From a virus: 56,476 bases of DNA. Each line of letters begins with the position of its first letter. The stretch's first letter is position 1. Shown one piece after another: positions 1-56,476 of this stretch. The position numbers were made by a program, and so were the translations under genes. The notes under the pieces are model-generated. The model was not told where the DNA came from and ran no database searches. It saw only the letters and a list, made by a program, of their open reading frames with translations. The stretch lies in the IMG/VR virus record IMGVR_UViG_3300028802_000186, positions 1-56,476 of that record; one strand, given 5' to 3'.

Positions 1-132
1 TTCGTGCACCGCCAGATGACTAAGGGCCAGTTCGACAGCCTTGACGACGCCACCCAGAAGAAGGTCCTCGACGACCTGGACCACCAGATCGCCAACGGCT
101 CGGGTGCGCGGACGAAGCAGCTTGCCCAGGAT
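1..132. repeat. Left copy of the 132-bp terminal repeat
   Basis: Identical to 56345-56476 except for one base (C at 127, A at 56471). Both copies lie in the same frame of the same giant ORF. The simplest reading is an assembly overlap of a circular or circularly permuted molecule, not a biological cohesive or direct terminal repeat. Confidence 0.95.
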
Positions 133-3100
133 GTGAAGGACCGCTTCCAGCCTGCGGCGGCACCGTCCGGCCCGGCCGCCTTGAAGCCCTCCGCGCCGCT
201 TGCGCCCGGCACTGCCGCGCACGTGCAGCACGCCAACGCCGTCGCCAACCGGACGGCACCCAAGGCGCAGATGTCGAAGACGCAGGTCGACTCGTACGGC
301 ACGCTGTCCAAGGCCGACTTCGACCAGCTCGCTCCGGCCGCGCAGAAGACGATCCGGGACGACCTGGCCAACGCCAAGGGCAAGTTCCTCGACCCGAAGA
401 AGCGGCAGGCCGCACAGGATCTCCTCGATCGTTTTGGATCGAGGCACCCCGCTTCGGCCGCTCCCGGGCCGTCCGCGACACCTGCCAGCCCAGCCCACCC
501 CAAGGGCTACAGCGACCCGATGAGCGAAGTCATCAAAGCTGCGCAGGGTGGCGACAACGGCAAATTCCTCCAGACGGTCGCCCGCATCTCCCCGGCCACC
601 GCCGCCAATTTCGACAACGGCGACCGCAAACAGATCCTCGCCCACCTCGACTTCATCGCCAGCCACCCGAAGGCCACCGACGAGCAGAAGGCGAAGGCGT
701 CCGCGTACGGCCGGATCTTCGGTGGGGGCACCCACGTGCCCGCCGCAACGAAGTTCGACCACACCCCGTCGATCGGAGAACTGCACACCGAGGAGCAGAA
801 GGGCGGCCACGCCGCCGCATTCGACGCCCTCAAGGCCGCCGACGATACGTCGATGCCGCGCGCCGATCGGATGAAGGCGCTCACCGCGCTGGACAAGGCC
901 CAGTTCGACGCCCTCGCCCCCGACGAGCAGCGCAAGATCACTGACGCACTGCACGTGCTGCACACCGACCAGAAGGGCACGACCGGCGGGATCACCCTGG
1001 ACAAGGCGGCCGGGCTGGCTATTGAGCGGCTGACCGGGGTGCGGCCGGGCCTGCACCGGCTGAGGCAGGCCGAAGCCGACTTCCGGGCCGGGAAGATCGA
1101 CGCCAAACAGTTCTGGGCCCAGCTTCTCCGCGCCCGGGTCCAGGACCCCGGATCCAGCCACACCCCCGGATCGGCCGGGGCCCTCCTCGAAAAGGAGGCC
1201 GCCCGGGTCGCACGGGACAACCCGACCCTGCCGCTGTGGCTGCGCGCCTCCATGATCGAGAACCCGTACAACGCCATAGGGCGCACCTACAATGCCGTCG
1301 CCATGGCAAGCATGGAGCACACCTGGGAGCCCGCCCCCCGGCTGTCAGGCAGCGACATCACAGCTATCTTCGGCCCCACCGTCGACGACCTCGCCGCCGC
1401 CGACCCGATCCACGCCGAGGCGATCAAGGCGCTGCGCGGGCACCTCATCGAAACCGGCCTGAAGGGTGACCCCGGCGTTCCCACCGGGAGCCCCTGGTCT
1501 CTCGCCACCCGCAACCATGTGGTGGACAACCTCCTGGGGATCTCCAGCGTCAGCCCGGAGGTCCCCGCCGAACGGCTGGCCGAATACAACGCCCTGCCGC
1601 ATGGTCAGCAGGCGCTGGTCCGCAAGGTGCTCCGCGAGCGCCTCGACAGCCAGACCAGCGATCATGCGAAGACTGGCACCTGGCTTGCCCTGCGCGAACT
1701 GGAGGGCCGCGCACCCCTTTCCCCGGAGCAGCGGGACGCCGCCATGGCCGCAACCGACAGCTTCCCCCGGTCCGGCGCGGACGACACCTACCGCAAGCTG
1801 CTCATCGCGGAGTTCGACGAGCTGCCCACGTACACCCGGGCCGCGATCCGCGCCAACCTGCTCCAGTTTCAGACGCGCGCCGAGCGCAGCGGCCCCGTCC
1901 GTACCTGGGGCGCCTCCGATAACCCGCTGGAGGTGTTCCCCGGTGCGCTCGCCGACCACCTGGCCGGGGTGCGCACCTTCTACGCGGATCGTCGCCTGCG
2001 TAACGCGTCGGACATCGCCAACTTCGGCACGAAGATCATCAACCCGTTCGACCGGACCCGGGCATACGAAGAGGTGCCGATCGGCCTCTTCCGCAACATG
2101 CCCCTGGGCGATCAGGCCCTGATCAACGACGACCTGGACAAGATCGCAGCCGACACGGCCAACCCCCTGCAAATCCGGTACGGCGCGCAGGTCGCCAGGG
2201 ACGTGCTGCTCAACACGCCCGCCCACATCAACACCCCGCAGCTCGTCGCCCTCAAGAAGGCCGACCCCCGACCCGGCCGCGAATCGTCCGACGCCGACGT
2301 GATCGGTGCGCTCGGCTACCTCGACAAGAGCGACTACGACAAGCTCAACAAGACGTACCGCGAGGCCATCGACGCGCGGATTGCGGCGCTGCCCGGCGCC
2401 GTGCAGCAGGCCATGACCGCCAAGTACCACCCGGCCGCCCCTGCAGCGACCCCCGCCGGGTACACGCCGACGACAGTGCAGGCGAACGTGCCGCCGCACG
2501 TGCAGGCCGCCCTGGACACCATCTACGGCGTCCACAAGTCCGGCAAGTCGCACACCATGGCCCACCAGCTGTCCACCTACGGGGCGCTACGCGGGTCCGA
2601 CTTCAGCCAGCTCAACGCGCAGGAGCAGGGCCACCTGCTCGGTGATCTGTCGTTCATCGCGACCACCGCCAAGGGGCCGTCCGCCGACAAGGCCCGCAAG
2701 TTGATCGACCGGTTCACCCCGGCTGGTACGCCGTCTGGGCAGGTGCCGACCGGCGCGGTCATCCCCCCGGCCAACGCCGTGCCCGGCCAGGTCCGCTACG
2801 CCACCCCGCTGAAGGGCCTGGAGCAGGCGAAGGACTCCGGCAAGTCCGGTGACGGCTGGATCTCCCTGCCGGGCGGCGGGCGGGTGTGGGGCGCGCACGG
2901 CGCGGCCGGTCTGCTGCTGCAGCACGTCGATCCGCAGACCGGCGAGAAGCGCTACCTGATGGTGCAGCGCGGCCCGGCCATCTCCGACCCGGGCAAGTGG
3001 ACGTTCCCCGGCGGCGCCAGCGACTCGAAGGAGACCCCGCACCAGGGCGCAGCCCGCGAGACGATCGAGGAGCTGGGCCTCAAGGCCGACGCCCTGAAGG

Positions 3101-4167
3101 ACGCCCTGGTCCACGGCGACCACACGTTCTCGGTGCCGAACCACTCGTGGAAGTACACGACGGTGGCCGCCCAGGTCCCGACGATGATCAAGCCGAACCT
3201 GACCACCGCCCACGCCCGCGCCGAAACGTCGGACGCGAAGTGGATGACGATCGATGAGATCCGCGCTCTCGACAAGAGCGGCCAGCTGCACGGCCCCATC
3301 GCAGGCGGCAAGCTGGAGCAGAACGTCATCTCCCTGTACCCGCAGGGCACCGGCCAGACACTGGGCCAGGTCGCCCGGCCCGGCCCCGTCACCAAGCGTC
3401 CGGGGCGGCTCCGCCTGCCGTCCGCCGGTCGCCAGGCGCCCGCCACGTTCAACGCGTGGCCGCACGCCCACAAGCCCTCGAAGGGCAAGGACCTCATCCC
3501 CGACAAGGCCGCCTTCGACGCCCAGCGGCAGAAGATCAAGCAGGACCGCAAGCTGTACGACGGCAAGACCGCCGACGGCCGCCTCGCCGCCATCGGAGCC
3601 CAGCAGGGATTCGACGACACCCCCACCGTCGTGGACCGCAAGGAGATCGATCGGCTCCTGGCCACCGGCGACTACATCGAGGCGTGGCGCGGCGTGTCCG
3701 GCGCCGGTGGCTGGTCGGCGCGCTCCCGGGGCGGCTCTGGCGGAAAGACCGCCGCCGACATCAACGAGGAGATGCGCACCGGCCCCGCCTACTACGGCAA
3801 GGGCATCTTCGGCAACGGCTACTACCTGGCCACTCAGAAGCGGGTGGCTGAGCAGTACTCCGACCACACCCACGGCTCCGTGGTGCGCATCCTCATCCCG
3901 AAGAGCGCCGTCACCCAGAAGTACGACAAGGTGTCGAAGGAGTCCCACGCCAACCCCCGGATGTCGAAGGCCAAGGGCGGCGGCTACGACGTCAGCACCT
4001 TCTACGACCCGGGTCGGTACGCCGCCGCGAAGGGCCTCGACGGTATCGAGATCAACGCGCACCACAGGTCCCCGAGCGGCGGCGCCGCGCACGTGGCGTC
4101 CAGCGGCAAGCCTGCCTTCAACTGGCTGAACCGCTCCGTGTTGATCCTCCAGAAGGAGCCCGCATGA
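1..4167 (+). CDS. Giant virion-associated protein, C-terminal part: helical repeats, NUDIX domain, ADP-ribosyltransferase domain
   Basis: This is the in-frame continuation of the ORF that begins at 54992. Joined, it is about 1839 residues, and residue 452 is the codon at position 1. Residues about 230-1350 contain roughly ten diverged helical repeats of the form F/Y-D-x-L-x4-Q-x2-I-x2-D/E-L, such as GQFDSLDDATQKKVLDDL and ADFDQLAPAAQKTIRDDL. A NUDIX hydrolase domain follows at about 1400-1530. Its Nudix box runs from G1456 to L1478, with R1470, E1471, E1474 and E1475 in place. The last 190 residues look like an ADP-ribosyltransferase: EAWRGV with R1681, then GKGIFGNGYYLAT at 1717-1729, then a strand before A-E-Q-Y. 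The gene sits between MuF/glycosyltransferase and the prohead protease, so a virion or injected protein is likely. I infer modification of host proteins or RNA with NAD as substrate, as for T4 Alt. The NUDIX substrate cannot be read from sequence. Confidence 0.85.
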   Translation, partial: FVHRQMTKGQFDSLDDATQKKVLDDLDHQIANGSGARTKQLAQDVKDRFQPAAAPSGPAALKPSAPLAPGTAAHVQHANAVANRTAPKAQMSKTQVDSYGTLSKADFDQLAPAAQKTIRDDLANAKGKFLDPKKRQAAQDLLDRFGSRHPASAAPGPSATPASPAHPKGYSDPMSEVIKAAQGGDNGKFLQTVARISPATAANFDNGDRKQILAHLDFIASHPKATDEQKAKASAYGRIFGGGTHVPAATKFDHTPSIGELHTEEQKGGHAAAFDALKAADDTSMPRADRMKALTALDKAQFDALAPDEQRKITDALHVLHTDQKGTTGGITLDKAAGLAIERLTGVRPGLHRLRQAEADFRAGKIDAKQFWAQLLRARVQDPGSSHTPGSAGALLEKEAARVARDNPTLPLWLRASMIENPYNAIGRTYNAVAMASMEHTWEPAPRLSGSDITAIFGPTVDDLAAADPIHAEAIKALRGHLIETGLKGDPGVPTGSPWSLATRNHVVDNLLGISSVSPEVPAERLAEYNALPHGQQALVRKVLRERLDSQTSDHAKTGTWLALRELEGRAPLSPEQRDAAMAATDSFPRSGADDTYRKLLIAEFDELPTYTRAAIRANLLQFQTRAERSGPVRTWGASDNPLEVFPGALADHLAGVRTFYADRRLRNASDIANFGTKIINPFDRTRAYEEVPIGLFRNMPLGDQALINDDLDKIAADTANPLQIRYGAQVARDVLLNTPAHINTPQLVALKKADPRPGRESSDADVIGALGYLDKSDYDKLNKTYREAIDARIAALPGAVQQAMTAKYHPAAPAATPAGYTPTTVQANVPPHVQAALDTIYGVHKSGKSHTMAHQLSTYGALRGSDFSQLNAQEQGHLLGDLSFIATTAKGPSADKARKLIDRFTPAGTPSGQVPTGAVIPPANAVPGQVRYATPLKGLEQAKDSGKSGDGWISLPGGGRVWGAHGAAGLLLQHVDPQTGEKRYLMVQRGPAISDPGKWTFPGGASDSKETPHQGAARETIEELGLKADALKDALVHGDHTFSVPNHSWKYTTVAAQVPTMIKPNLTTAHARAETSDAKWMTIDEIRALDKSGQLHGPIAGGKLEQNVISLYPQGTGQTLGQVARPGPVTKRPGRLRLPSAGRQAPATFNAWPHAHKPSKGKDLIPDKAAFDAQRQKIKQDRKLYDGKTADGRLAAIGAQQGFDDTPTVVDRKEIDRLLATGDYIEAWRGVSGAGGWSARSRGGSGGKTAADINEEMRTGPAYYGKGIFGNGYYLATQKRVAEQYSDHTHGSVVRILIPKSAVTQKYDKVSKESHANPRMSKAKGGGYDVSTFYDPGRYAAAKGLDGIEINAHHRSPSGGAAHVASSGKPAFNWLNRSVLILQKEPA
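427..440 (-). repeat. GATCnAAAACGATC site with both GATC halves
   Basis: GATCCAAAACGATC on the minus strand inside the giant gene, where the coding strand encodes L-D-R-F-G-S. Confidence 0.8.
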
Positions 4168-4599: not shown

Positions 4600-6627
4600 A
4601 TGGGGACCGCCTGGCAGATGCCGCTAGCCGTCATCGGTAAGCCGACCGGCGACGGCCGTCAGTTCGATGCGGGGGCGCTGTCGCACCGCGACCTGCCGTT
4701 GCCGCTGCGGTACGTCGCCTCCGACTCCGGCGGGCACGCTAACGCCGTGATCGTCGGACACATCGCGAAGATCGGCAAAGAGAAAGACGGAATGCTTCCC
4801 GGCAGAGGGGAGTTCTACGACGACGAATCCTGGCCCGAGGATGTGCGTAACGCCGCCACGGCCGCCCGGATGTTCACCGAGAACAAGGTGATCGGCCCGT
4901 CCGTCGACCTTGATCAGCAGGAAGTCGAACACGTCCCCGAGCCGAAGGCGTACGCGAGCTGGAAGAAGGATCAGGCCGGGAAGCTGAAGGCCGCGAAGAT
5001 GGCCCACTCGAAGGCCACCGGCGGCGACTGCGGCTGTGGCAGCGATCCGGTCATGGCCGAGGAGTCATACGAGGGGCCCCGCCTGCGGATGATCCGCTCC
5101 GGCCGGATGGCGTCGGCCACGCTGGTGCACATCCCGGCGTTCGCCGAGCTGTCCGGGCACGCGAAGCTGATCCCGATCGACTCGTCTGACCCGAACGTGG
5201 ACGGCACCACCTCCTCGGCGATGGTCGCGGGCGCTCTGCTCGAATTCGACTGGGCCGCCGTCGAGTGGGACAAGATCGAAAACGATGCGGAGATGACTCC
5301 CGAGCGGCTGGCTAATGTGCTTTCGGACGGCGCCGTCGCCCCCGGCAAGGCGGTCAGTCCTATCCCCCATCGCAAGGCCAAGAAGAAGCCGAACGTGGAC
5401 GGCTCGCAGGACACGCAAGAGATGGCCGCCGACTCCGGCATCTGGCTTTCGGACGCCGAGTACGAGGGGTTCGCCCGCAAGAAGCTGCCGCGCCCCTCCA
5501 AAGAGGGCGAGCCCGAGCAGCAGGGCACCGACGGCGAGCAGGCCCAGGGCGGCGGCGGACTGGGTGGCGGCACCTACGCCATGGACCGGGCCAAGATCGA
5601 CTCGCAGGACTTCGTCGACCCCGACGGCCGCCGCTTCCCGATCACCGACTGCGCCTCCATCGGCGACGCCATCAGCTCGTACGGCCGGGCCGACCCGAAG
5701 ATCCCATACGCGAAATTCAAGGCCCGCGTGACGGCCATCGCCAAGCGCAAGGGCTGCCAGGGCAGCCTGCCCGACAACTGGAAGGCCGGAGAGAAGATGG
5801 CCGCACTCATGGCGGCAGCCGCCCCGGCCGCCCCGGCCGCCCCACCCAAGGAATGGTTCGACGATCCGAAGCTGACCGGCCCGACCCCGCTGCACATCGG
5901 CGACGACGGCCGCGTGTACGGCCACGCCGCCACCTGGGGCACCTGCCACATCGGTATCGGCGACTCGTGCACCCTGGCCCCCAAGTCGGCCACCAACTAC
6001 GCCTACTTCCACACTGGCGAGGTGGTCACCGCCGACGGATCCCGGATCCCCGTCGGCCGCCTGTCGTACGGCAAGGGCGGCCACGCCGGGCCGAACCTGG
6101 GCTACCGGGCGGCGGCCGAACACTACGACAGCACCACCAGCCTCGGCGCCCTCGTGCGCGCGGGCGAAGACCAGTACGGCATCTGGGTGGCGGGCGCCCT
6201 CGTGCCTGAGGCCGACGAGGCGGCGATCCGCACCATGCGGGCAACCCCACTGTCCGGTGACTGGCGACGTGTCGGCGCCAACCTGGAGATGGTGGCCGCC
6301 CTGCACGTCGTCACCGCCGGGTTCCCCATCCCTCGCGCGGTCACCGCCTCGATCGGGCAGGAGGAGGCCGTACTGAGCCTGGTCTCGGCTGGCGTCCTAT
6401 GGACCGAGCAGCCCGGCGACTCGGTCACGGCCTCCTTGCCGATCGACACGGAGGCTCTGGGGCGGGCCATCGCTCGGGGCATGCTCGCCGAGCAGCAGGA
6501 GGCCGTCGCGCTCTCCGCGCGCGCGGAGGAGTGGCGCCAGCTGGTGGCCGCCGCCACGGCGGTGGACCTCAGCGCCGATTACGATGACGCCATGGGCGAC
6601 CTGATGGCCGTCCTGGTTCAGGAGTGA
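4600..6627 (+). CDS. Prohead (capsid maturation) protease, long actinophage form
   Basis: A 675-residue protein with an N-terminal protease-like region. VGHIAKIG contains H54 and VIGPSVDLD contains S101. That spacing and the G-x-S-V-D context are typical of phage capsid maturation proteases. HIPAFAEL follows at about 177. Cys-rich GGDCGCGS and low-complexity Ala/Pro linkers (about residues 405-420) separate it from a second domain at about 420-600. That domain has GHAATWGTCH and the stretch RATPLSGDWRRVG that recurs in actinophage protease fusions. It lies upstream of the major capsid gene and is expected to cleave the capsid N-terminal delta domain during head assembly. The catalytic assignment is inferred from motif context. 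Confidence 0.8.
   Translation: MGTAWQMPLAVIGKPTGDGRQFDAGALSHRDLPLPLRYVASDSGGHANAVIVGHIAKIGKEKDGMLPGRGEFYDDESWPEDVRNAATAARMFTENKVIGPSVDLDQQEVEHVPEPKAYASWKKDQAGKLKAAKMAHSKATGGDCGCGSDPVMAEESYEGPRLRMIRSGRMASATLVHIPAFAELSGHAKLIPIDSSDPNVDGTTSSAMVAGALLEFDWAAVEWDKIENDAEMTPERLANVLSDGAVAPGKAVSPIPHRKAKKKPNVDGSQDTQEMAADSGIWLSDAEYEGFARKKLPRPSKEGEPEQQGTDGEQAQGGGGLGGGTYAMDRAKIDSQDFVDPDGRRFPITDCASIGDAISSYGRADPKIPYAKFKARVTAIAKRKGCQGSLPDNWKAGEKMAALMAAAAPAAPAAPPKEWFDDPKLTGPTPLHIGDDGRVYGHAATWGTCHIGIGDSCTLAPKSATNYAYFHTGEVVTADGSRIPVGRLSYGKGGHAGPNLGYRAAAEHYDSTTSLGALVRAGEDQYGIWVAGALVPEADEAAIRTMRATPLSGDWRRVGANLEMVAALHVVTAGFPIPRAVTASIGQEEAVLSLVSAGVLWTEQPGDSVTASLPIDTEALGRAIARGMLAEQQEAVALSARAEEWRQLVAAATAVDLSADYDDAMGDLMAVLVQE
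5274..5286 (+). repeat. GATCnAAAACGAT site, full match
   Basis: GATCGAAAACGAT in the protease gene, encoding K-I-E-N-D. Confidence 0.75.
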
Positions 6628-7453: not shown

Positions 7454-8140
7454 CTAGCTCTCGTCGTACCGCGCCGCATCGGCGTGGGCGTCCCAGCCCG
7501 TCTGCCGGGCGCGTTCCTGATCCGCCAGCCACCCGGCAACGAGCCGCTTGGTCGCGCTGGCCGGGAGGCCGAAGCCCTCAATGAACGCGGCCACCTCGTC
7601 TCGCGTCAGCGGCGCGGTCCGTGGCTGCCGTGCGGAGACCGCCACGTTTGCCCGCGCATCCGCGACCCGCCTCTCCCAGTGCACCACCTGGACCTTCTTC
7701 ATCTGCGGCGCGATCGGCTTGCCGTCGAGCACGTCAAGCGTGAGCTGGTGCGGGCGCCCGTCGTAGAACCTGTCCAGCACCGCGTTCGGAAGCGTCGGAT
7801 CGGCGACCACCGTGGAAAACAGGGTCATGCAGGCGTGCAGCTTGTAGTTGTCCGGGTAGCTGAACATCAGCCGCCGGTGACTGAGGACGCCCATCGTGCA
7901 TTCGGCCAGCCGGGCGCGCAGCACCGGATCGCCGATGTAGGCGGCGGCCTCGGCCTTGTCGGCGAGCCCGTAGTGCTGCGCGGTTTCGCTCTTCGCCAGG
8001 ACGCGCAGCTGCGGGAACACAAACCACATCCAGTGGGTGCGCTTACGCCCTGCCACGATCTCGCTGCGCGCCCTGGCGTACGCGCCCTGCCGGGCGTGGG
8101 CGACGTGGAAGCGGTCCAAGCCGACCGCGCGCTGCGTCAT
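7454..8140 (-). CDS. DUF1810-family protein (Rv1873-like)
   Basis: 228 residues from the ATG at 8140, five bases after the stop of the upstream gene. Family hallmarks are clear: a basic GRKRTHWMWFVFPQL stretch at 31-45, then Y-x2-A-D-K-A-E-A-x2-Y, and K-L-H-A-C-M-T-L-F at 100-108. Known members are all-helical and lack an assigned activity. Residues about 145-228 form an extra C-terminal extension ending in a charged helix. Neighbours are small zinc-ribbon and hypothetical genes, so the island looks like host-takeover cargo. A link to the phage's ADP-ribose enzymes is only a possibility. Confidence 0.85.
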   Translation of the reverse strand: MTQRAVGLDRFHVAHARQGAYARARSEIVAGRKRTHWMWFVFPQLRVLAKSETAQHYGLADKAEAAAYIGDPVLRARLAECTMGVLSHRRLMFSYPDNYKLHACMTLFSTVVADPTLPNAVLDRFYDGRPHQLTLDVLDGKPIAPQMKKVQVVHWERRVADARANVAVSARQPRTAPLTRDEVAAFIEGFGLPASATKRLVAGWLADQERARQTGWDAHADAARYDES

Positions 8141-8145
8141 GGCGC

Positions 8146-8466
8146 TCACGGCCGCCACCTGTGCTTGTTCAGCACGGCAACCACCAGGTCCAGGCCGACG
8201 CCGCTGATCAGCGTCTCGGAGCACCCCTCGCAGCCGAGGTGGAGGGTCGTCTCCGTGTCCCAGTCGTACAGGCTGCGCGCGCCCGGGAAGGCCGCCCAGG
8301 TCAGCTTCTCCTCGCCGCACTCCGGGCATACGCCCCGGTTGATCAGGGCGGCCCGGCAGCTCGGGCAGGTCATCTCGGCCAGCTGGGTGGTCAGCTCATC
8401 CCGGCGGGCGGCCGAGAGGCGGCACTCGGTCAGCGCCGTACCGCGACCGTTCAGCAGGTGCCTCAC
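8146..8466 (-). CDS. Zinc-ribbon protein
   Basis: 106 residues from a GTG that overlaps the upstream stop (GTGA). A zinc ribbon lies at about 36-52 (CPSCRAAL then CPECGEE). A second Cys pair (LGCEGCSET) comes later, so one or two metal sites are plausible. It could bind nucleic acid or protein; no catalytic domain is visible. Confidence 0.7.
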   Translation of the reverse strand: MRHLLNGRGTALTECRLSAARRDELTTQLAEMTCPSCRAALINRGVCPECGEEKLTWAAFPGARSLYDWDTETTLHLGCEGCSETLISGVGLDLVVAVLNKHRWRP

Positions 8467-9278: not shown

Positions 9279-10289
9279 TCAGGCCGCGTCTACCGCGTCG
9301 TTTTCGATCTTGGCACCCGCCTGCCGGTCCCGCATCGGCGAATCCCTCGCCGCATCCTCAGCGGCCTTCCGGTTGATCACCAGCTTCGGCCACTGGTCCG
9401 GAGGCAACGGCAGGATGTTCGCCTTCGGCGGCGGGAACGGCTTCGCGCGGTACTCCGGCACCCCGTACCAGACGGTCTTCTGGTGGGTGGTCGACACGCC
9501 CGTGTGCACCAGGACAGGCAACCCCACCTGATGGGCGCGCAGGCAGAACGAGATGTCCTCCCCGCACATCTCGCCGTCCGGGCCCGGAATCCGCTCGAAC
9601 CAGATGTGCGGCGGCGCGCCCTGCTCAAGTAGCCAGGCGCTGATCTTCTCGTACACCGATCGGTGAGTCAGCAGGAAACCGGTGCCGGTCGCACCGACCC
9701 GGGTCACCTCGTCCGGCGCCCACTCCGGCCGGGACGCCAGCTTGTACGCGCCGGGCATCCCCGACTTCGGCTCCACCCACGACCAGTCGTACAGCGTCGG
9801 CGCCAGGCTGGACCGCAGCCCGCCCCGGAAGTCGTAGGTGTAGTCACCCTCGACGAAGCACAGGCCGCCGACGATCGGCGCGGTGTCCGGGTCAGCGACC
9901 GCGAGCAGCTTCTCCAGGGCGTCCTGCTCGGCGCCGATGTCCGAATCCCACCAGAGCAGCCACTCCGAGTCGCTGGCCAGGAAGGCGGCGGCGGCCGTGT
10001 TGCGGGCGTGGGCCAGCTCCATCGAGCGACCCCACACGGCGGCCAGTGCGCCGTTGTTCATCAGGCCCGAGTTGTGCAGCAGATGGTTGCCGTGCGCCTT
10101 GTCGTAGGCGGCCACCCGCAGCACCGACTCGACGAAGTTCCATCCCGCCTCGTTCAGGTGCGGCACCCCGATGCACACCTTCTCCCCGGCGCGGGGATCC
10201 AGGGCCCTGCCGAGGTGCTTCTGCGCCTCCCGGGCGATCCGCTCGGGGTCGCACTCAAAGCTGGGCTGGTCGGCGTCGTTCAACGTCAT
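9279..10289 (-). CDS. GT-A type glycosyltransferase
   Basis: 336 residues, about the usual length for a single-domain phage GT-A enzyme. ARNTAAAAFL then LLWWDSDIG supplies the metal-binding D-S-D (115-117). GEDISFCLRAHQVG matches the acceptor-side E/D motif of family-2-like enzymes. VHTGVSTTHQK follows near the end, and the last 30 residues are charged. It stands alone between two hairpins, upstream of the major capsid gene on the opposite strand. The acceptor (virion protein, DNA or host envelope) is unknown. Confidence 0.8.
   Translation of the reverse strand: MTLNDADQPSFECDPERIAREAQKHLGRALDPRAGEKVCIGVPHLNEAGWNFVESVLRVAAYDKAHGNHLLHNSGLMNNGALAAVWGRSMELAHARNTAAAAFLASDSEWLLWWDSDIGAEQDALEKLLAVADPDTAPIVGGLCFVEGDYTYDFRGGLRSSLAPTLYDWSWVEPKSGMPGAYKLASRPEWAPDEVTRVGATGTGFLLTHRSVYEKISAWLLEQGAPPHIWFERIPGPDGEMCGEDISFCLRAHQVGLPVLVHTGVSTTHQKTVWYGVPEYRAKPFPPPKANILPLPPDQWPKLVINRKAAEDAARDSPMRDRQAGAKIENDAVDAA
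9297..9309 (-). repeat. GATCnAAAACGAT-type site
   Basis: GATCGAAAACGAC on the minus strand, inside the glycosyltransferase C-terminus, where it encodes K-I-E-N-D. Confidence 0.7.
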
Positions 10290-10393: not shown

Positions 10394-12274
10394 GTGGCCA
10401 ACCTGCCTTTCCGGGTCCCGACTGCCGACGACGGCTCGTACGCCTTCGCCGGAATGTCGACCGATGACCTGACTTCGATTCGCTCGCAGGCGCGTGAAGC
10501 GGCTGCCCAGTACGCGGAGATGGACGTCTCCGACGTGTCGGCCGATGACATCGAGACGATGCGCGAGCTGACCACCATCGTTCAGGGTGTCGACGCCGAG
10601 CGGACCCGACGTAGCGGCGCGGCTGGCGCTTTCGCCGCCCTCACTGACAGCCTCGGCGACGAGGACGAGACCGACGCCGGAGCGGACTCCGACGGCGCGG
10701 GCGCCGAGGGGACCGGCACCCCGGAGACTCCCGCAGCGACCACCACGGCTGCGGCGGCCAAGCCGACCGCGCCGAGCGTCGCCGCTGTAGCCTCCCGGAC
10801 CACTCCCGCCGTCCCGGCCGAAACGGAGACGTCCCGAGTCCCGGCCGTCATCCTCGCCGGGGCCAACAACTCCGACTACCCGACCGGCGCGGAGCTGGAC
10901 TGGAATGCGGTCGGCGCGCTGGTCGAGAAGCGGTTCCTGCAGTACAACGCGGCATCCGGCATGGGCGGCCGTCGGCAGGACCCGATCGCGCAGTTCAAGC
11001 TGGAGTACCCGAAGGAGCTGACCGCGTCGGGTGGTCTCAACGACGACGCGACCGCGATCATCGACTACGCGGCCAGCGAGAAGCGCCTACCGGGCGGCTC
11101 CCTGCTCGCGTCGATCAACCTGGCTCGCAAGAAGATCGAGAGCCAGGGCGGCAACAGCCTGACGGCTGCGGGCGCCGGTTGGTGCGCCCCGTCGGAGGTC
11201 ATCTACGACCTGTGTGAGCTGGAGTCTTCGGACGGCCTGCTGGACATTCCGGAGATCAACGTCTCGCGGGGCGGCATCAAGTTCACGACCGGCCCGGACT
11301 TCAGCTCGATCTACTCGGGTGCCGGGTTCTTCCACTACACCGAGGCGCAGATCATCACCGGCGTGACCAAGCCGACGATGCCGGTGCCGTGCCCGTCGTT
11401 CACGGACGTCCGCCTCGAGGCTGACGGTCTGGCGATTCAGGCGGACCTGCTGCAGCTGCGCGGCTATCCGGAGCTGATCGCCCGGTTCGTGCGGGGGGCG
11501 ATGGTCGCCCACACGCACAAGATCAACCAGTTCATGATCAACGCCTTGGTGACCGGCTCGACCGCGCTCAGCCTTCCGAGCAACGTCGCCGCCCACACCC
11601 CCGGCCTGGGCACCACCTGGTACTCCGACCACTCGGTGGTCTCCACCCTGCTGGGCGCCCTCGACATGGCCATCCAGGACTACAAGTACCGCCAGCGGAT
11701 GCAGCTCTCCAGCACCCTGGAGATCGTGCTCCCGTACTGGGTGCAGTCGTGGATCCGCGCCGACATCACCCGCAAGGCGTTCTACGACGGCGACGGCGGC
11801 TCGGACCAGTACGCCATCACCATGCAGAAGATGGCGGAGTGGCTGGCCGTTCGCGGCGCCCGCGTGCAGTGGGTGTACGACTGGCAGGACGCTTTCTACT
11901 GGGCGGCCTACCCGACCGGCGCCCCGTCGCAGTGGCAGCAGTTCGGCACCGACCCGACCTCCAGCAACTTCGTGCAGGACTGGCCGCACACGCTCCAGAT
12001 CCTGATGTACGCGGCCGGTACGTGGGTGCGCGGCAACGCCGACATCATCACCCTCGACACCGTGTACGACTCGACGCTGCTGGCGCAGAACAAGACCACC
12101 CAGCTCTTCACCGAGCAGGGCATCCTCGCGGCCAAGACCTGCTTCGACAGCCGGGTCTACACCATCGGCACCGCGACCGGCGGCCTGATCCCGGACGGCG
12201 CGGCGGCGTACGCCCTGAACGCCCAGGCGGTCGCCTCCACCGGCACCTTCGCCACCTTCCCCACCAACCCGTGA
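10394..12274 (+). CDS. HK97-fold major capsid protein with N-terminal scaffold-like domain
   Basis: 626 residues from a GTG. Residues 1-90 are a charged helical region and 90-140 an Ala/Thr/Pro/Glu-rich linker, which resembles a cleavable delta/scaffold domain. The remaining about 480 residues are rich in beta segments typical of capsomers, such as LDIPEINVSRGGIKF and LEIVLPYWVQSWIRADI. It sits downstream of the protease and upstream of the connectors and is followed by a strong hairpin, as expected for the most abundant virion protein. The cleavage site cannot be placed from sequence alone. Confidence 0.85.
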   Translation: MANLPFRVPTADDGSYAFAGMSTDDLTSIRSQAREAAAQYAEMDVSDVSADDIETMRELTTIVQGVDAERTRRSGAAGAFAALTDSLGDEDETDAGADSDGAGAEGTGTPETPAATTTAAAAKPTAPSVAAVASRTTPAVPAETETSRVPAVILAGANNSDYPTGAELDWNAVGALVEKRFLQYNAASGMGGRRQDPIAQFKLEYPKELTASGGLNDDATAIIDYAASEKRLPGGSLLASINLARKKIESQGGNSLTAAGAGWCAPSEVIYDLCELESSDGLLDIPEINVSRGGIKFTTGPDFSSIYSGAGFFHYTEAQIITGVTKPTMPVPCPSFTDVRLEADGLAIQADLLQLRGYPELIARFVRGAMVAHTHKINQFMINALVTGSTALSLPSNVAAHTPGLGTTWYSDHSVVSTLLGALDMAIQDYKYRQRMQLSSTLEIVLPYWVQSWIRADITRKAFYDGDGGSDQYAITMQKMAEWLAVRGARVQWVYDWQDAFYWAAYPTGAPSQWQQFGTDPTSSNFVQDWPHTLQILMYAAGTWVRGNADIITLDTVYDSTLLAQNKTTQLFTEQGILAAKTCFDSRVYTIGTATGGLIPDGAAAYALNAQAVASTGTFATFPTNP

Positions 12275-40428: not shown

Positions 40429-41223
40429 ATGAAGGCTCGCATCCAGGCGGCACTCGCCGCCCTGGTCCTCGCCACGGCCGTGATCGTCGGGGGCTTCGCC
40501 GCCCCCGCGCACGCGGCCCTGACCTACTTCTACGCCGGTGGTCGCCAGACCTACACGACCACTGGCGCCGGGGCCAACTTCGGCATCGGCATCCCCGCGA
40601 TCACGAGCGGCGACTTCCACTCGCTGTTTGAAATCTCGGTCTCCACGACTGACCAGAACCAGGCTGTCGAGGCTGGCTGGACCGTCGACCCGGGCACCTA
40701 CGGCGACAGCCACCCGCACCTGCTCGTCAGCAAGTGGGTCAACGGGGCCTTCGGCGGCTACAACGACGCCAGTTGGAACGACTGGGCGGCCAACGGCCTC
40801 GACCGGGGCGCTGACCTCAGCGCCTACGTCGGCGGCGCCGAGAAGTCGATCACCATTCAGTACCAGGGCACCGGCACGACCGGCTGGTGGGTGTTCTTCG
40901 ACGGCAGCCCGGTCGGCTGGTTCTCCAGCGGCCTCTGGACGTCCCCGACGTTCACGCAGAGCGGTAAGGTCCAGCTGTTCGGCGAGGTGGCGGCCAACGT
41001 GGCGGCGCCCTGCACGAACATGGGCAACAGCATCTACCCGAACGGCCTGACCTACCCAGCCGCCGGTGCACCGCTGCGCATCTCGAACACGACCTACGCC
41101 GACGGCACCACGAACGTCAATCTGACCCTGTTCCGGACCAACTCCGCGTACTACGAGACGGCCTTCCAGCCGTCGACCAGCGTGCGGAGCATGGCCATCG
41201 GCGGCACCGGCAACGCCTGCTAA
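40429..41223 (+). CDS. Secreted neprosin-like protein
   Basis: 264 residues after AAGGAGG. A classical signal peptide ends AHA-A (cleavage after residue 29). The mature 235 residues match the neprosin (DUF239) layout: VEAGWTVDPGTYGDSHPHL, then SITIQYQGTGTTGWWVFFDG and VGWFSSGLW, then LFGEVAAN. The family's catalytic glutamates correspond plausibly to E81 and E186. Known neprosins are prolyl endopeptidases of the glutamic type. A secreted enzyme in a phage could act on the envelope, or be a moron altering the host's surroundings. C195 and C264 could pair. Confidence 0.7.
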   Translation: MKARIQAALAALVLATAVIVGGFAAPAHAALTYFYAGGRQTYTTTGAGANFGIGIPAITSGDFHSLFEISVSTTDQNQAVEAGWTVDPGTYGDSHPHLLVSKWVNGAFGGYNDASWNDWAANGLDRGADLSAYVGGAEKSITIQYQGTGTTGWWVFFDGSPVGWFSSGLWTSPTFTQSGKVQLFGEVAANVAAPCTNMGNSIYPNGLTYPAAGAPLRISNTTYADGTTNVNLTLFRTNSAYYETAFQPSTSVRSMAIGGTGNAC

Positions 41224-45775: not shown

Positions 45776-45943
45776 CGACCGAAAGTGCTTCGTGGACGGC
45801 CTGATATGGCCGTGACGTCCACCAGAGGTCGCGCATGAGGAGGGCCCGCTCTCCACCGCCGGGCCAGATGCACCCGGCAGGTAACAGGAACGGCAGGGCA
45901 ACGCCTAGCGGGTCGACACGCGAAGCGGAAGAGCGCCGTACCC

Positions 45944-46013
45944 GCCACGTAGCTCAGATGGCCAGAGCTGGGGCCCTAAGCCCTGAGTCGGAGGTTCGAA
46001 TCCTCCCGTGGCA
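45944..46013 (+). tRNA. tRNA-like gene 2, five-base anticodon loop (CCTAA)
   Basis: A 6-bp acceptor, GCTC/GAGC D arm, and GGAGG-TTCGAAT-CCTCC T arm are canonical. The anticodon stem GGGGC/GCCCT closes only CCTAA. The likely triplet is CTA (amber) or TAA, uncertain because the loop is short. Confidence 0.6.
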
Positions 46014-46334
46014 CGGAAGACGCACCGGGGCACCGGGTGCGACACCCCACGCAACACCCACAGGTGCAAGCGCTGGACGACGCCCCCACGCCTCGGGGGA
46101 TGAGGCCCAGTTCGGCGCGACGGCCGCTAGATGACCCGGGACATACTCCGGGCGGCCGGGATCGGGCAGCGTCCCGCAAGGGGTACGGCCGTACGGCTGC
46201 TGGGCTTCAATGCCACCGATCCGCGCGAAGGAACGACGAGGACGACCTGTCCCGCAAGGCCCTTGGCCCCCTGCATGGACCTGTCGACTGCTCACCTCGC
46301 CGCTAACCGACGCCCTCGCCCTGAGCAAGCGAGG
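46014..46334. other. 321-base tRNA spacer without a gene
   Basis: No ORF with a ribosome site, and no T-arm consensus. It contains several short hairpins. Nothing else seen. Confidence 0.6.
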
Positions 46335-50158: not shown

Positions 50159-52114
50159 ATGGGGCTGCTGACCCGTAAGGCCAAGCTCGTGCCCGCCGGT
50201 GGGCAGGACGGCCCGGGAACGCGACCTGCCGCCCTGACCGCCGCCGCCGTACCCATCAACCTGGGCGACGCCGCCTCCTGGCAGATGTTCAAGCTCGGCG
50301 ACCACCGCTGGCAGTGGGAGGCCTGGCGCCACTACGACATCTGCGGGGAGATGCGTTTCGTCGTCAACTGGATGGGCAACAGCATCTCCCGCTGCCGCAT
50401 GTACGCGGCGCAGATCACCGACGATGGGGTGGTCGGTGACGAGGTCGAAGACCCCCGCGTGAAGATGATCGCCGAAACCATGTTCGGCACCCCGGCCGCG
50501 AAAGCGCAGGCCCAGCGCCTGATGGGCATCAACATGATGACCGCCGGGGATTGCTTCATCGTCGCCGAGGGGTACCGGTCCGCCCAGGACGGCGAGGTCG
50601 GCACCGACAAGTGGTACGTATGCTCCTCGTCCGAGGTGTACCGGCGCGGTGACGACATCATGGTTCGCCGTTCCATCACCCACGGCGGCGGCACGTACAA
50701 GCTGGACAAGGCCAAGGATCTGCTGATCCGGTGCTGGAATCCGCATCCGCGCCGCCATGACGCCGCCGACTCCACCGTGCGGGCCATCCTGCCGGTGCTG
50801 CGGGAGCTGGAGCAGTGCACGAAGCGGGTGTTCGCCGAGCTTGACTCCCGCCTGGCCGGTGCCGGGATCCTGCTGCTGCCGGACAACATCGACTTCCCGC
50901 GTCCGCCGCAGGAGACGCCCAATGTGCCGCAGCGTTCCGGGGTGGAGGGCTTCGCGGACTTGTTGCAGAGGACGATGGCTACGTCGATGCAGCAGCGCGA
51001 CAACGCTGCCGCCGTGGTGCCGATCATCTTGCAGGTGGCGGTCGACGCCCTCGACAAGATCAAACACTTGACGTTCGATTCGACCATCTCCGAGCATATC
51101 TCCCAAATGCGCAAGGACGCCGTGGCCCGCATGGCGATGTCGCTGGACATTCCGCCCGAGGTGCTGACCGGCATGGGCGGCTCGAACCACTGGTCGAGCT
51201 GGCAGATCGAAGAGTCCTCGATCAAGATCCACATCGAGCCGCTGCTGATCCAGCTCGCCGACGCCCTCAACATCGGCTACTTCCAGCCCGCCCTCAAGGC
51301 CGCAGGCATCCCGAACCCGGAGAAGATGACCCTCTGGTTCGACATCGCCGCCCTCACCGTACGGCCCAACCGCTCCGAGCAGGCCATGCAGTTCGCCGAA
51401 AAGGAGTACATCTCCGCCGAGGCCGCCCGCAAGAACGCCGCCTTCACCGAGGACGACGCCCCCAAGAAGGCGGAGCTGGTCTACAACATCACCAAGGCCC
51501 TGGTCCTGGCGCAGCCCGCCTACGCGGGCGACCCGGAGGTGCAGAAGATCCTCGGCCTGCCCAACATCCAGATGCCCGCCCCGGCCGCTCCCCCGGCGCC
51601 GCCCGGAGACCTGATGCCCGGCGACCCCGGCTATGACACGGCCGGTAGCGAACCGGCAGATGTGGGTGCTCGCGGCCTGCCGCAGTTCCCGTCCGTCGCC
51701 GAAGCGGAGTCCGGCGCCGTCCCAGGCAAGGGCCAGAAGCTGGCGGCCCTGGCGGCTTCCGCCCTGAAGCCCCTCGGTGACGCCGCCCTGTTCTACGCCG
51801 CCGACGCCGCCGTGCGCCGCGCCTTGGAGCTGGCCGGTGGCCGCCTCGTCGCGGGGCCGCAGCGCACCCGGTACGGCGTGCCGAAGCACGAGCTGCACAC
51901 CCAGGTCGTCCCGGACCGGTCCCGCGTGCCCGCTCTGCTGGCCGGAGCCTGGACTCACGCCCGCGACCAGGCTCTCGCCCTAGGTGTCGACCCGGACGCG
52001 CTGGAGGAGCTTCTGGGCGGCTACTGCACGGAGCTGCTGACCCGGGGCGTCCCGCATGAGGCGGGTCTGCTGCGGGCCACGCTGCACCAGGCACGAGGAG
52101 ACCTGAAGTCATGA
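50159..52114 (+). CDS. Portal protein
   Basis: 651 residues. Core features: RFVVNWMGNSISRCRMY (wing start), GDCFIVAEGY, SSSEVYRR and EHISQMRKDAVARMAMSLDI with PPEVLTG, matching actinophage portals. SIKIHIEPLLIQLADAL is the stem region. Residues 475-651 add a Pro-rich linker and a helical tail. Twelve copies should form the packaging vertex. Confidence 0.85.
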   Translation: MGLLTRKAKLVPAGGQDGPGTRPAALTAAAVPINLGDAASWQMFKLGDHRWQWEAWRHYDICGEMRFVVNWMGNSISRCRMYAAQITDDGVVGDEVEDPRVKMIAETMFGTPAAKAQAQRLMGINMMTAGDCFIVAEGYRSAQDGEVGTDKWYVCSSSEVYRRGDDIMVRRSITHGGGTYKLDKAKDLLIRCWNPHPRRHDAADSTVRAILPVLRELEQCTKRVFAELDSRLAGAGILLLPDNIDFPRPPQETPNVPQRSGVEGFADLLQRTMATSMQQRDNAAAVVPIILQVAVDALDKIKHLTFDSTISEHISQMRKDAVARMAMSLDIPPEVLTGMGGSNHWSSWQIEESSIKIHIEPLLIQLADALNIGYFQPALKAAGIPNPEKMTLWFDIAALTVRPNRSEQAMQFAEKEYISAEAARKNAAFTEDDAPKKAELVYNITKALVLAQPAYAGDPEVQKILGLPNIQMPAPAAPPAPPGDLMPGDPGYDTAGSEPADVGARGLPQFPSVAEAESGAVPGKGQKLAALAASALKPLGDAALFYAADAAVRRALELAGGRLVAGPQRTRYGVPKHELHTQVVPDRSRVPALLAGAWTHARDQALALGVDPDALEELLGGYCTELLTRGVPHEAGLLRATLHQARGDLKS

Positions 52115-52344: not shown

Positions 52345-52526
52345 CCCCCGAACAGATGGCGACGATAGGCGCCTTCGCGGGCGCCCTCGGCAAACTCAAG
52401 GCGAAACAGGAGCTGGGCCAGGGCGCCGAGCTGACGGCCGACGAGGTGAACGGCATCATCTGGGGAATCAAGCAGCTACGAGGAGGCGCCCAGCATGGCC
52501 CAGCCGACAACCCTGCCGAACGCTGA
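52341..52526 (+). CDS. Small helical protein overlapping MuF
   Basis: 61 residues in ATGA overlap, extending 32 bases into the MuF gene. Helical (EQMATIGAFAGALGKLKAKQ). Short linkers like this occur between portal and MuF in related phages. Confidence 0.55.
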   Translation: MTPEQMATIGAFAGALGKLKAKQELGQGAELTADEVNGIIWGIKQLRGGAQHGPADNPAER

Positions 52527-53910
52527 CGCGCAGAGGGCCGCCGCCCTGGAGGTGTTCGCCCAGTACGAGCCGCCCCTGTATGAGGCATACCTGGAGATGA
52601 TGCTGGAGTGGATGGCCGCCGTGAAGGCCGCCATGTTCGCCGGTGGCGTCGCCGCACTCGGGCTGGTGCCCGACCCGCTGGCCGTGTTCTCCCAGACCCC
52701 CAAGTGGACGGCGTTGACCGCGCAGTACACCGCTCAGGTGGCCCGTGAGGTCCTTGCGGCCCCATACCGGGACCTGTTCGCCGACGACGCGCTGTTCGAG
52801 TCGCGGCCGTTCGTGCGTAACTGGATCGTCGAGCGGGAGAACCGGCTGTCGGCCATGCCTGATCAGGTGTTCGGTCTCGTCTCCCAGATCATTGACTCGG
52901 CAACAGTCAACGGCGCAAGCATCCCCGACGTGACCGCCCAGGTCGAACAGCTGTTCTCCGACACCAGCATCCCCACGTGGAAGAACCGGGCCCGCACCGT
53001 CGCCCGCACCGAGGTCGTCGGCGCCTACAACGGCGGGCTGCACGACGCCTTCGCCATGATCGTCGAGAACGACCCCGACACCGAATACGTGCACCGCTGG
53101 CTCGCCACCGAAGACCACCGCACCCGCCCCGACCACGTTGAGGCGGACGGCCAGACTCAGCCGTTCGGCCAGCCGTTCATCATCGGCGCCCAAGAGGGCG
53201 AGGGCGCCCACCCGGGCTACGCCATGATGTTCCCCCACGACCCCGCCGGACCCCCTCACGAGGTGATCAACTGCCGGTGCGTCGAACTGCTGGAGATCAA
53301 AAACGAGCCGACGAAGATGGCCAACCGCCAGTACCTCGGCGCCTCCGGCATGACCCTCGAGCAGACCATCGGCCCCGACTGCGGGTTCTGCATGCTCACC
53401 CACAAGCCCGGCCTGTGCAAAGGGCAGAAGCGCGGCCAGACCGAGCCCGGCGCGCAGGACGAAACCAAGAAGACGCCCGCCCAGGTGGCCCAGACCGCCG
53501 TCACCGGCCTGTCCGACGCCATCACCCGAGCCGAGCAGGTCGCCGCCCAATCCGCAGGCACCAACCCGAAGCTGGCCGCCATGGCACGCCGGGCCATCGC
53601 CGGATACCGCAAGGCCCTGCGCCCGCACCAGCAGACCCTCAAGCAGGCCGCAGGTGCCAACGCCAAAGCAAAGCGGACCGCCACCCAGGACACCAAGCAG
53701 CAGGACACCCTCGACAAGCGGGCCAAGCGGCAGAAGGAGAGCCTCGGCAAGGCCGCGCAGCGCATCCTCGACCGCCGCGCCGAAAAGGCCAAGCTGAAGA
53801 AGATGACCCCGCACCAGCGCACCGCCTACCACAAGGCGAAGTCGGCAGCTGCCAAGGCGAAGCGCGAGGCCCAGGAGAACAAGACGTTGAAGGAGGCGGG
53901 CAAGGGGTGA
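52495..53910 (+). CDS. MuF-type minor capsid protein
   Basis: 471 residues after GAGGAGG. The MuF core: RARTVARTEVVGAYNGG at about 165-180, LATEDHRTRPDH at 203-214, and HEVINCRCVE with C260 and C262. Residues 330-471 are Lys/Ala-rich helix, probably coiled coil. MuF proteins are head-morphogenesis proteins often carrying toxin tails; here the toxin-like domains are in the separate giant gene. Confidence 0.8.
   Translation: MAQPTTLPNADAQRAAALEVFAQYEPPLYEAYLEMMLEWMAAVKAAMFAGGVAALGLVPDPLAVFSQTPKWTALTAQYTAQVAREVLAAPYRDLFADDALFESRPFVRNWIVERENRLSAMPDQVFGLVSQIIDSATVNGASIPDVTAQVEQLFSDTSIPTWKNRARTVARTEVVGAYNGGLHDAFAMIVENDPDTEYVHRWLATEDHRTRPDHVEADGQTQPFGQPFIIGAQEGEGAHPGYAMMFPHDPAGPPHEVINCRCVELLEIKNEPTKMANRQYLGASGMTLEQTIGPDCGFCMLTHKPGLCKGQKRGQTEPGAQDETKKTPAQVAQTAVTGLSDAITRAEQVAAQSAGTNPKLAAMARRAIAGYRKALRPHQQTLKQAAGANAKAKRTATQDTKQQDTLDKRAKRQKESLGKAAQRILDRRAEKAKLKKMTPHQRTAYHKAKSAAAKAKREAQENKTLKEAGKG
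53295..53307 (+). repeat. GATCnAAAACGA site
   Basis: GATCAAAAACGAG within MuF, encoding E-I-K-N-E. Confidence 0.6.
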
Positions 53911-54954: not shown

Positions 54955-54995
54955 CCGCTGAAGATCAAAAACGATCCCGTATGCTCAGCCCATGA
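54951..54995 (+). CDS. 14-codon micro-ORF carrying the GATC element
   Basis: GTG start inside the upstream stop, stop inside the giant gene start (ATGA). Its codons include the full GATCAAAAACGATC site. Could couple translation into the giant gene. Confidence 0.35.
   Translation: MTAEDQKRSRMLSP
54963..54976 (+). repeat. GATCnAAAACGATC site with both GATC halves
   Basis: GATCAAAAACGATC, 16 bases upstream of the giant gene ATG, followed by TATGCT. Confidence 0.8.
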
Positions 54996-56476
54996 CGACG
55001 CTCGGCACGCTGGTCAAGGGCCTCGGCCTTTCGATCGCTCCGCTGCCATTCGACCCAGCCCGCGTCATGCTCGAACTGGGTCACGCCATCGCCCGGCACA
55101 ACATGACGGCGTCCATGGCGGGGCCCGGCCACAGCCCTAGCCCCGCCGCCGGTCTCGGCAACCCGGCCAGCGTCCTCGCTTCCGTCATCGCCTGGACCCA
55201 GCAGGACGACGACGCTCACGAACCGTGCTCGCTCACCGCCTGCCGCCACCCGCTGCACCCCGGTCCCTGCAAGGGCTGGAAAGGCACCCTGCATGCCGTC
55301 TCCCCTGGCACGTATCGGCAGCTCGAAGAGGCCCGCGTCGAGAAGGCCAACACCCGCCGCCTCAAGCGCATCGCCGACCTGCGATCCCAGGGCAAGCCGA
55401 TCCCCCGCAAGCTGCTCGAAGAGATCAAGCCGAAGCCCGCCCCCGTCCACCCCGCCAACAACGCCCAGGCCGTGCCGCTCGGGCAGGTCAACCAGAAGGC
55501 CGACCTCGCCGGAGGCCAGGCGCACACCGCCGGTCAGGCCGTCTCCAAGGCGGCGGGCGTCCAGGTCAAGACGGCCCCGCCGCTGCCGCTCGGGCCGAAG
55601 CAGAAGAAGCCGACCATCGCCGGTCGCGGCCCCGCGTTCGTCATCACTCAGCCGAAGGTCACCGACACCTACAAGCTGGACAAAGCCGACAAGATTACCC
55701 CGCAGGAGTGGAGCAGCCTCACCGACGCGGACAAGACGACCATCCGCAACGAGCTGACCGCCATCAAAGCGCGTGGCTTCGGCCCGCAGCAGACCAAGGC
55801 TGACGCCCTCCTGGCCAAGCTTCCCGCCCCCGGCGCCGCCAACGGCCTCGCCCCCGGCACCCCCGGCACCATCACCACGCCGAGCGGCAAGGTGTACCAG
55901 AAGGTCAGCGTTGCCCCCGGCAAGGTCAGCCTCGGACAGGCGTCCAAGACGGTCCCCGCCGCGCCGTCCGCAACGCCCACGCCGCAGCTCCCCGCCCCGC
56001 CCCCGGCGCCCAGGCGGGGCACCCGCGACCAGAACGGCATTCTGAACAAGCCGCTCCCCGGCGGCTCGGTCTCCTCGACCTCGGTGGGTCTACCCCAGGG
56101 CTACCGGATCACCCGCGACGGCATGGGCTACAGCCTCAAGCACAACGGGAGGCTGATCCGCACCAGCTCGACGCAGGCCGCCCTGGAGAAGTACGCCGCC
56201 GAGCACCACGCCAGCGCGGTGCTCGGTCTGCCTGCGCCCGCCACGCCGCCGCCCGCCGCGCCGTCGGCCACCAAGCCCGACATCACCGACCAGGTGAAGA
56301 AGGCCCTCGACCCGTCGGCCAAGCTCGGCCCGCCCGCCCGCCTGTTCGTGCACCGCCAGATGACTAAGGGCCAGTTCGACAGCCTTGACGACGCCACCCA
56401 GAAGAAGGTCCTCGACGACCTGGACCACCAGATCGCCAACGGCTCGGGTGCGCGGACGAAGCAGCTTGCCAAGGAT
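54992..56476 (+). CDS. Giant virion-associated protein, N-terminal part
   Basis: Continues at position 1 across the circular join. Residues 1-70 include a helical start (MTTLGTLVKGLGLSIAPLPF). A Cys/His set at about 80-95 (CSLTACRHPLHPGPC) could bind zinc. RRLKRIADLRSQGKPIPRKL is a basic helix. A Pro/Lys linker leads to the first helical repeat at about residue 234 (ITPQEWSSLTDADKTTIRNE). Long Pro/Ala linkers follow before the repeats in the continuation. No signal peptide. The start is fixed by ATGA overlap with the micro-ORF. Confidence 0.85.
   Translation, partial: MTTLGTLVKGLGLSIAPLPFDPARVMLELGHAIARHNMTASMAGPGHSPSPAAGLGNPASVLASVIAWTQQDDDAHEPCSLTACRHPLHPGPCKGWKGTLHAVSPGTYRQLEEARVEKANTRRLKRIADLRSQGKPIPRKLLEEIKPKPAPVHPANNAQAVPLGQVNQKADLAGGQAHTAGQAVSKAAGVQVKTAPPLPLGPKQKKPTIAGRGPAFVITQPKVTDTYKLDKADKITPQEWSSLTDADKTTIRNELTAIKARGFGPQQTKADALLAKLPAPGAANGLAPGTPGTITTPSGKVYQKVSVAPGKVSLGQASKTVPAAPSATPTPQLPAPPPAPRRGTRDQNGILNKPLPGGSVSSTSVGLPQGYRITRDGMGYSLKHNGRLIRTSSTQAALEKYAAEHHASAVLGLPAPATPPPAAPSATKPDITDQVKKALDPSAKLGPPARLFVHRQMTKGQFDSLDDATQKKVLDDLDHQIANGSGARTKQLAKD
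56345..56476. repeat. Right copy of the 132-bp terminal repeat
   Basis: Matches 1-132 with A for C at 56471, within the giant ORF. Confidence 0.95.

Follow-up and report, generated by a model that had tools for sequence, protein, structure and literature searches.

The stretch of DNA analysed here ("the window") is the whole of IMG/VR virus record IMGVR_UViG_3300028802_000186, the complete-looking genome, 56,476 bases long, of an uncultured soil phage, and the subject is one giant protein of 1839 residues that is encoded among its head genes. The last 440 residues of this protein hold a Nudix domain, whose assignment from the sequence is certain, followed by a domain that is read here, from its predicted fold and from distant matches, as a divergent member of the ADP-ribosyltransferase (ART) superfamily. 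The two domains are found in one open reading frame (ORF) in 37 of the 37 loci, collected by scans of viral contigs, that cover both regions, all of these being from uncultured phages. With moderate confidence, they may be taken together as a mobile, head-associated cassette that acts on the chemistry of nicotinamide adenine dinucleotide (NAD) and ADP-ribose, and that is probably delivered at infection. Nudix domains and ARTs linked to the head were each known before. A conserved pair in a single chain links the two chemistries and, if it is borne by the virion, offers a concrete test of phage delivery of NAD/ADP-ribose-processing enzymes at infection.

The gene crosses the ends of the record. 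The first and last 132 bases are identical except for a single mismatch; because the ends overlap in this way, the frame that opens at the ATG at 54992 runs to 56344, carries on from base 1, and closes at the TGA that ends at 4167. This join is not an accident of assembly, since a relative (G003/L008) has an unbroken frame of about 1839 codons over the homologous junction within one contig, with 72% identity to the window protein over residues 1-494. Thus, the possibility that the residue count was a mere artefact is ruled out. The original prediction, made from the sequence alone, had placed the protein in the interval 1-4167, which holds only the last 1388 codons, or about three quarters of the gene. 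Its length of about 1839 residues is nevertheless exact once the ORF is joined, and its residue numbers are all correct, with the Nudix box starting at 1456, R1681 lying within AWRGV, and GIFGNGYYLA occupying 1719-1728. The parts of the gene needed for the argument are these:

54992..56344, + strand: giant protein, residues 1-451, from the ATG; the frame resumes at base 1 (backed by the relative G003)
1..4167, + strand: giant protein, residues 452-1839, and TGA stop (ORF translation)
56345..56476, + strand: end overlap of 132 bp, agreeing with bases 1-132 at all but one position; the record is circular or terminally redundant
2845..3273, + strand: Nudix domain, RenU-like, residues 1400-1542 (Pfam, PHROG, PDB sequence and Foldseek matches)
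3013..3081, + strand: Nudix box GX5EX7REXXEEXGU, residues 1456-1478 (motif reading, alignment of relatives)
3463..4164, + strand: C-terminal ART-like domain, residues 1606-1839 (AlphaFold2 model, weak Pfam matches, fold matches)
3688..3690, + strand: R1681, invariant, at the end of strand 1 in AWRGV; it replaces the His of H-Y-E/D ARTs (model, alignment)
3802..3831, + strand: GIFGNGYYLA, residues 1719-1728, with Y1725 and Y1726 invariant (alignment)
4117..4158, + strand: strand-5 region FNWLNRSVLILQKE, residues 1824-1837; a conserved acid is absent where the catalytic Glu/Asp is expected (alignment)

The Nudix motifs lie far above chance, since the domain matches Pfam NUDIX (PF00293) with an E value of 1.3e-14 (54.8 bits, the cut-off being 21.1), the MutT/NUDIX family phrog_1198 at 7.8e-20 and, as the top PDB sequence match, RenU from Mycobacterium smegmatis (6uuf) at 3.1e-17. 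The prediction of a Nudix hydrolase is also borne out by the predicted fold, for which Foldseek finds RenU to be the nearest solved structure in the PDB (E 2e-10, template modelling (TM) score 0.78). The box itself, GASDSKETPHQGAARETIEELGL in the window protein, is intact in all 32 of the giant proteins tallied. Every acidic, Arg and Gly position is kept in every relative; the first U of the consensus GX5EX7REUXEEXGU is filled by Thr in the window protein, and elsewhere by Val or a similar residue. RenU hydrolyses ADP-ribose, FAD and NADH, while NAD+ is not cleaved (PMC4401782). By this resemblance, the Nudix domain most likely cuts ADP-ribose-type molecules.

The assignment of the second domain is more subtle. 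Modelled by itself with AlphaFold2, it gives a predicted local distance difference test (pLDDT) of 88.2 and a predicted TM score of 0.86; this model was used in place of a joint model of both domains, whose ART part came out with low confidence. The 50 best matches in a fold search of the PDB are nearly all PARP catalytic domains, those of PARP1, PARP2 or others (E about 0.007-0.3). In the viral fold library BFVD, 13 models reach E<=1e-3; they include a protein that bears the name PolyVal ADP-ribosyltransferase, A0A127AWP1 of Bacillus phage SP-15, a 1479-residue protein of Gordonia phage GodonK, and a protease/MuF fusion. In Pfam, 21 of 23 members match ART-PolyVal (PF18760) weakly, with 8.5e-4 as the best value, and 13 of the 23 match PARP, at best 4e-3, all below the curated cut-offs; for PF18760, the domain in the window scores 14.1 bits and the gathering cut-off is 31.2. 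A profile of the domain finds GodonK gp67 at 6.9e-12 (hhalign 95%, 3.6e-8) and SP-15 gp271 at 3.3e-7 (hhalign 91.7%, 7.8e-7). These two homologues are reached only by profiles and folds: a tblastn search with the domain returned no match at E<=0.01 in 50,697 phage records, and two scans of bacterial genome contigs (prophage or host) confirmed no homologue. A Foldseek match to a chain of the cyanophage A4 pre-ejectosome (probability 0.44) was too weak to be used.

What this domain has kept of an ART active site was read over 34 distinct sequences, with invariance meaning invariance wherever a site is covered. R1681, N1723, Y1725, Y1726, Y1737, D1739, S1744, R1747, D1798, N1828 and R1829 are invariant. 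The H-Y-E(D) clade of ARTs has a His in strand 1, and here Arg1681 stands in its place in 34 of 34; the strand-2 Tyr of that clade is present, as Y1725 and Y1726, in 34 of 34. In strand 5, no Asp or Glu is conserved over the 34, the aligned site of the catalytic acid being occupied by Ala, Ser, Gly or Asn, and no conserved acid follows D1798; in L077 and L084, the region reads PNYVVLNRS. From the alternative R-S-E signature, the window domain has the R and lacks both STS and ExE. Candidates for a catalytic acid were considered and rejected: a search of the 34 sequences for the invariant strand-5 Glu of a canonical ART found none; E1801 (in GIEI) varies to Gln, Arg, Val and Ile; and E1678 is invariant in the 34, yet is Gln in L084. 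Thus, the ART half of the original prediction is supported as a probable fold, while ADP-ribosyltransferase activity is not supported by the sequence. What emerges is a clade of ART-like domains whose active site is unusual and for which the 50,697 phage records searched hold no close homologue.

In more distant relatives, the cassette is joined to other head proteins. It is fused to a phrog_776 portal in L032/L033 (6e-156), to HK97-type PF04860 portals in L022 (5.7e-26) and L024 (7.1e-24), and to a Mu-type portal (Portal_Mu) in L036 (1.3e-59). Fusion to MuF is seen by Pfam in two members (2.7e-14), and a purpose-built profile indicates it in L027/L028. One further giant protein (L023:6956-10681) carries a canonical ART exoenzyme domain (PF03496, 5.4e-13) together with the Nudix and ART-like domains in one chain; the motifs of this additional domain are VIRGT, YVSTTAN and EEAEV, corresponding to R, STS-like and ExE. 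Going by these fusions, to portals, to MuF and to the ART of L023, the cassette behaves like a mobile unit that is linked both with head proteins and with the chemistry of ADP-ribose. The pair has been kept in every relative seen while being shuffled onto MuF and onto portals of three families. The portal gene of the same contig (L023:3487-6963) also contains an intein, which bears a homing endonuclease domain of the LAGLIDADG type (PF14528, PF14890 weak).

The remainder of the giant protein is built differently. The helical repeats of the original prediction are recovered by an iterated profile search as about nine copies of a predicted helical repeat of about 45 residues, between residues 233 and 1355, with similar numbers in most close relatives. 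Close to the N-terminus stands CSLTACRHPLHPGPCKGWK, whose Cys/His motif has a counterpart (CxxC...H.PGLCKG) in the adjacent MuF protein:

55226..55276, + strand: Cys/His motif CSLTACRHPLHPGPCKG in the giant protein, a possible zinc site (conserved in relatives)
53380..53424, + strand: counterpart of this motif in the MuF protein, CGFCMLTHKPGLCKG (motif comparison)
55688..55819, + strand: helical repeat copy 1, residues 233-276 (iterated profile)
10..2712, + strand: helical repeat copies 2-9, residues 455-499, 550-595, 643-684, 744-792, 1047-1094, 1139-1181, 1221-1248 and 1310-1355 (iterated profile)

This pairing of one motif (Cys/His-PGxCKG) in two adjacent proteins, MuF and the giant, recurs in relatives, and a shared head-docking or zinc element is a possible interpretation. 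The two domains of the cassette have diverged less than the repeats, with median identities of 0.78 and 0.75 against 0.52. The NG86 dN/dS values of 0.40-0.77 are used only for ranking, since strong GC bias makes their absolute values unreliable.

The location in the head module, also part of the original prediction, agrees with the neighbouring genes and with the portal and MuF fusions of the relatives:

50159..52114, + strand: portal protein (phrog_776, 6e-163)
52495..53910, + strand: MuF-like minor head protein (PF04233, 3e-11)
4600..6627, + strand: head maturation protease-like protein, downstream of the giant protein (phrog_859, phrog_18402; segments 48-50% identical to the proteases of Clown and GodonK)
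10394..12274, + strand: major capsid protein (phrog_777)

The order portal, MuF, giant, protease, then (on the opposite strand) a DUF1810 protein and a glycosyltransferase, then capsid, is found in about 20 relatives. Gordonia phage Clown has the same order of head genes without the giant, which implies that related phages can build their heads without this protein. The DUF1810 gene (PF08837, 1e-40; 7454-8329, - strand) lies between the protease and capsid genes and is there in many relatives; its slot holds an annotated RNA ligase in Clown and a metallophosphoesterase in GodonK, and this difference in content suggests a cargo position within the head module. The glycosyltransferase-like gene (9279-10289, - strand) matches phrog_34859, and a second such gene (53907-54803, + strand) was assigned by visual inspection, helped by its partial occurrence among relatives. 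Elsewhere in the genome, ARAGORN predicts, within a small tRNA cluster, a tRNA with the anticodon CUA, of the amber suppressor type (45943-46014, + strand); a few genes of the window still end in TAG (terL, the DUF1810 gene). A Neprosin-domain protein (PF03080, 5.5e-15; 40429-41223, + strand) represents a type of peptidase that is unusual for a phage.

Domain identity, conservation, synteny and the fusions are, of course, what the sequences themselves offer; for packaging, ejection, substrate and biological role, the following account is what we infer. The giant protein would be made with the late head genes and, to judge from synteny and from the fusions, incorporated near the portal and MuF. 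Its N-terminal part, with the Cys/His motif and about nine repeats, is probably a scaffold that binds the head or serves as a spacer. The adjoining maturation protease may free the protein, although no site for this has been identified, and the protein would then enter the cell along with the DNA. There, the Nudix domain would hydrolyse ADP-ribose-type molecules, while the ART-like pocket, conserved but with Arg and Tyr and no Glu, would most likely be a binding site for NAD+ or ADP-ribose groups, which it might or might not go on to transfer or hydrolyse in a non-standard reaction. The cassette would thus degrade or capture molecules derived from NAD or ADP-ribose, the most plausible being signals of host defence or marks made of ADP-ribose; a host protein and NAD-capped RNA are other candidate targets.

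Several observations weigh against this account. The PDB gives the ART-like domain only weak fold matches, with a best E of 0.0066 and TM scores mostly of 0.2-0.35, and hhalign of its profile against the ART-PolyVal prototype RPP1 is negative (probability 0.5%), for which reason membership of PF18760 is not claimed. The Nudix domain is about 33% identical to RenU, and at that level the substrate range of a Nudix enzyme is hard to predict. Further, because the portal remains in the emptied capsid, a cassette fused to it would need to be cleaved off to be injected, and no cleavage site was identified.

A bolder reading is offered with low confidence. Here, the Glu-less R-Y fold would run a non-standard NAD+ reaction, either transfer to a nucleic acid or small molecule or the capture of NAD+ or ADP-ribose, coupled to a Nudix domain for ADP-ribose-type substrates, and would have been attached repeatedly to unrelated portals for delivery.

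It is doubtful that the protein is instead, as the original prediction had it, an injected ADP-ribosyltransferase like T4 Alt that modifies host proteins, with its Nudix domain trimming or recycling the ADP-ribose that results. Such an enzyme would fit the ART-like fold, the invariant R1681 and Y1725/Y1726, the head context, and the full R-S-E ART beside the cassette in L023; it fits poorly with the missing strand-5 acid, the missing STS, the Arg in place of the strand-1 His, and a Pfam score well under the cut-off. Class-2 PARPs retain that His, which is absent here. Human class-2 ARTDs, which lack the Glu, are nonetheless able to mono-ADP-ribosylate, and class 3 is considered inactive because it has lost NAD+ binding (PMC3508985); the missing Glu therefore neither proves nor excludes activity.

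Unlikely, too, is an anti-defence cassette in which the Nudix domain alone is catalytic and the ART-like domain is a dead module that senses or captures NAD+ or ADP-ribose, steering the Nudix domain to immune signals derived from ADP-ribose. The fully intact Nudix box beside an ART-like site without Glu would be expected from this, and a role in countering such signals has been proposed for the Nudix domains of phages (PMC9503650). However, the ART-like pocket is conserved as strongly as the Nudix domain, more than a simple relic would require. A purely structural element for assembly or packaging at the portal or MuF, its enzyme ancestry incidental, would account for the head linkage wherever context is known, for the fusions and for the long helical-repeat scaffold, and is very improbable given the invariant Nudix catalytic residues and the head of Clown, which has the same gene order without it.

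Several known systems come close to the proposed NAD/ADP-ribose cassette. RenU shares with the window Nudix domain an upstream GDGW...WGxHGAAGLLL stretch, but is a free cellular enzyme of 17 kDa, whereas the window domain sits inside a giant phage head-module protein. ART-PolyVal proteins (PF18760; prototype RPP1 vRNAP) appear to have in common with the window domain an ART-like beta-core, a GxGxYxxT-like strand 2 and a GxDG before the last strands; the window domain differs in having Arg for His and no strand-5 acid, while RPP1 keeps H...F...E (LYHGT...LFFT...GEIMVV). The PARP/ARTD catalytic domains supply the top PDB fold matches and include class-2 members that also lack the Glu (PMC3508985), but the H-Y-E triad is absent from the window domain and sequence identity is about 10%. 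Among cultured phages, GodonK gp67, which immediately follows the portal, and SP-15 gp271 are homologues of the ART-like domain; a Nudix domain is present nowhere in GodonK and was not detected in SP-15 gp271. The Bodo saltans virus KptA-Nudix protein (PMC9503650) also joins an ART-superfamily domain to a Nudix domain in one chain, but is an RNA-repair enzyme of a giant eukaryotic virus, with no link to a head.

No phage head protein that pairs a Nudix with an ART-like domain was found in the literature searched, though this does not prove that none has been reported. Head-linked ARTs, including MuF fusions and T4 Alt, have already been described, with injection proposed (PMC9503650, PMC5512222). 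They have a head-linked, ART-like fold in common with the window protein, so that the precedent of T4 Alt, invoked in the original prediction, holds as a functional analogy; it fails at the Alt/VIP2-type R-S-E signature, which the window domain does not have. Injection has likewise been proposed for phage Nudix domains of the NudE-like type that are joined to MuF, portal or capsid protease (PMC9503650). The family described here differs from these in that its Nudix domain is always paired with an ART-like domain and is RenU-like rather than shown to be NudE-like. Like phage polyvalent proteins and head-packaged effectors, it unites several functional domains in a single chain, which is either encoded within the block of head genes or joined to portal or MuF.

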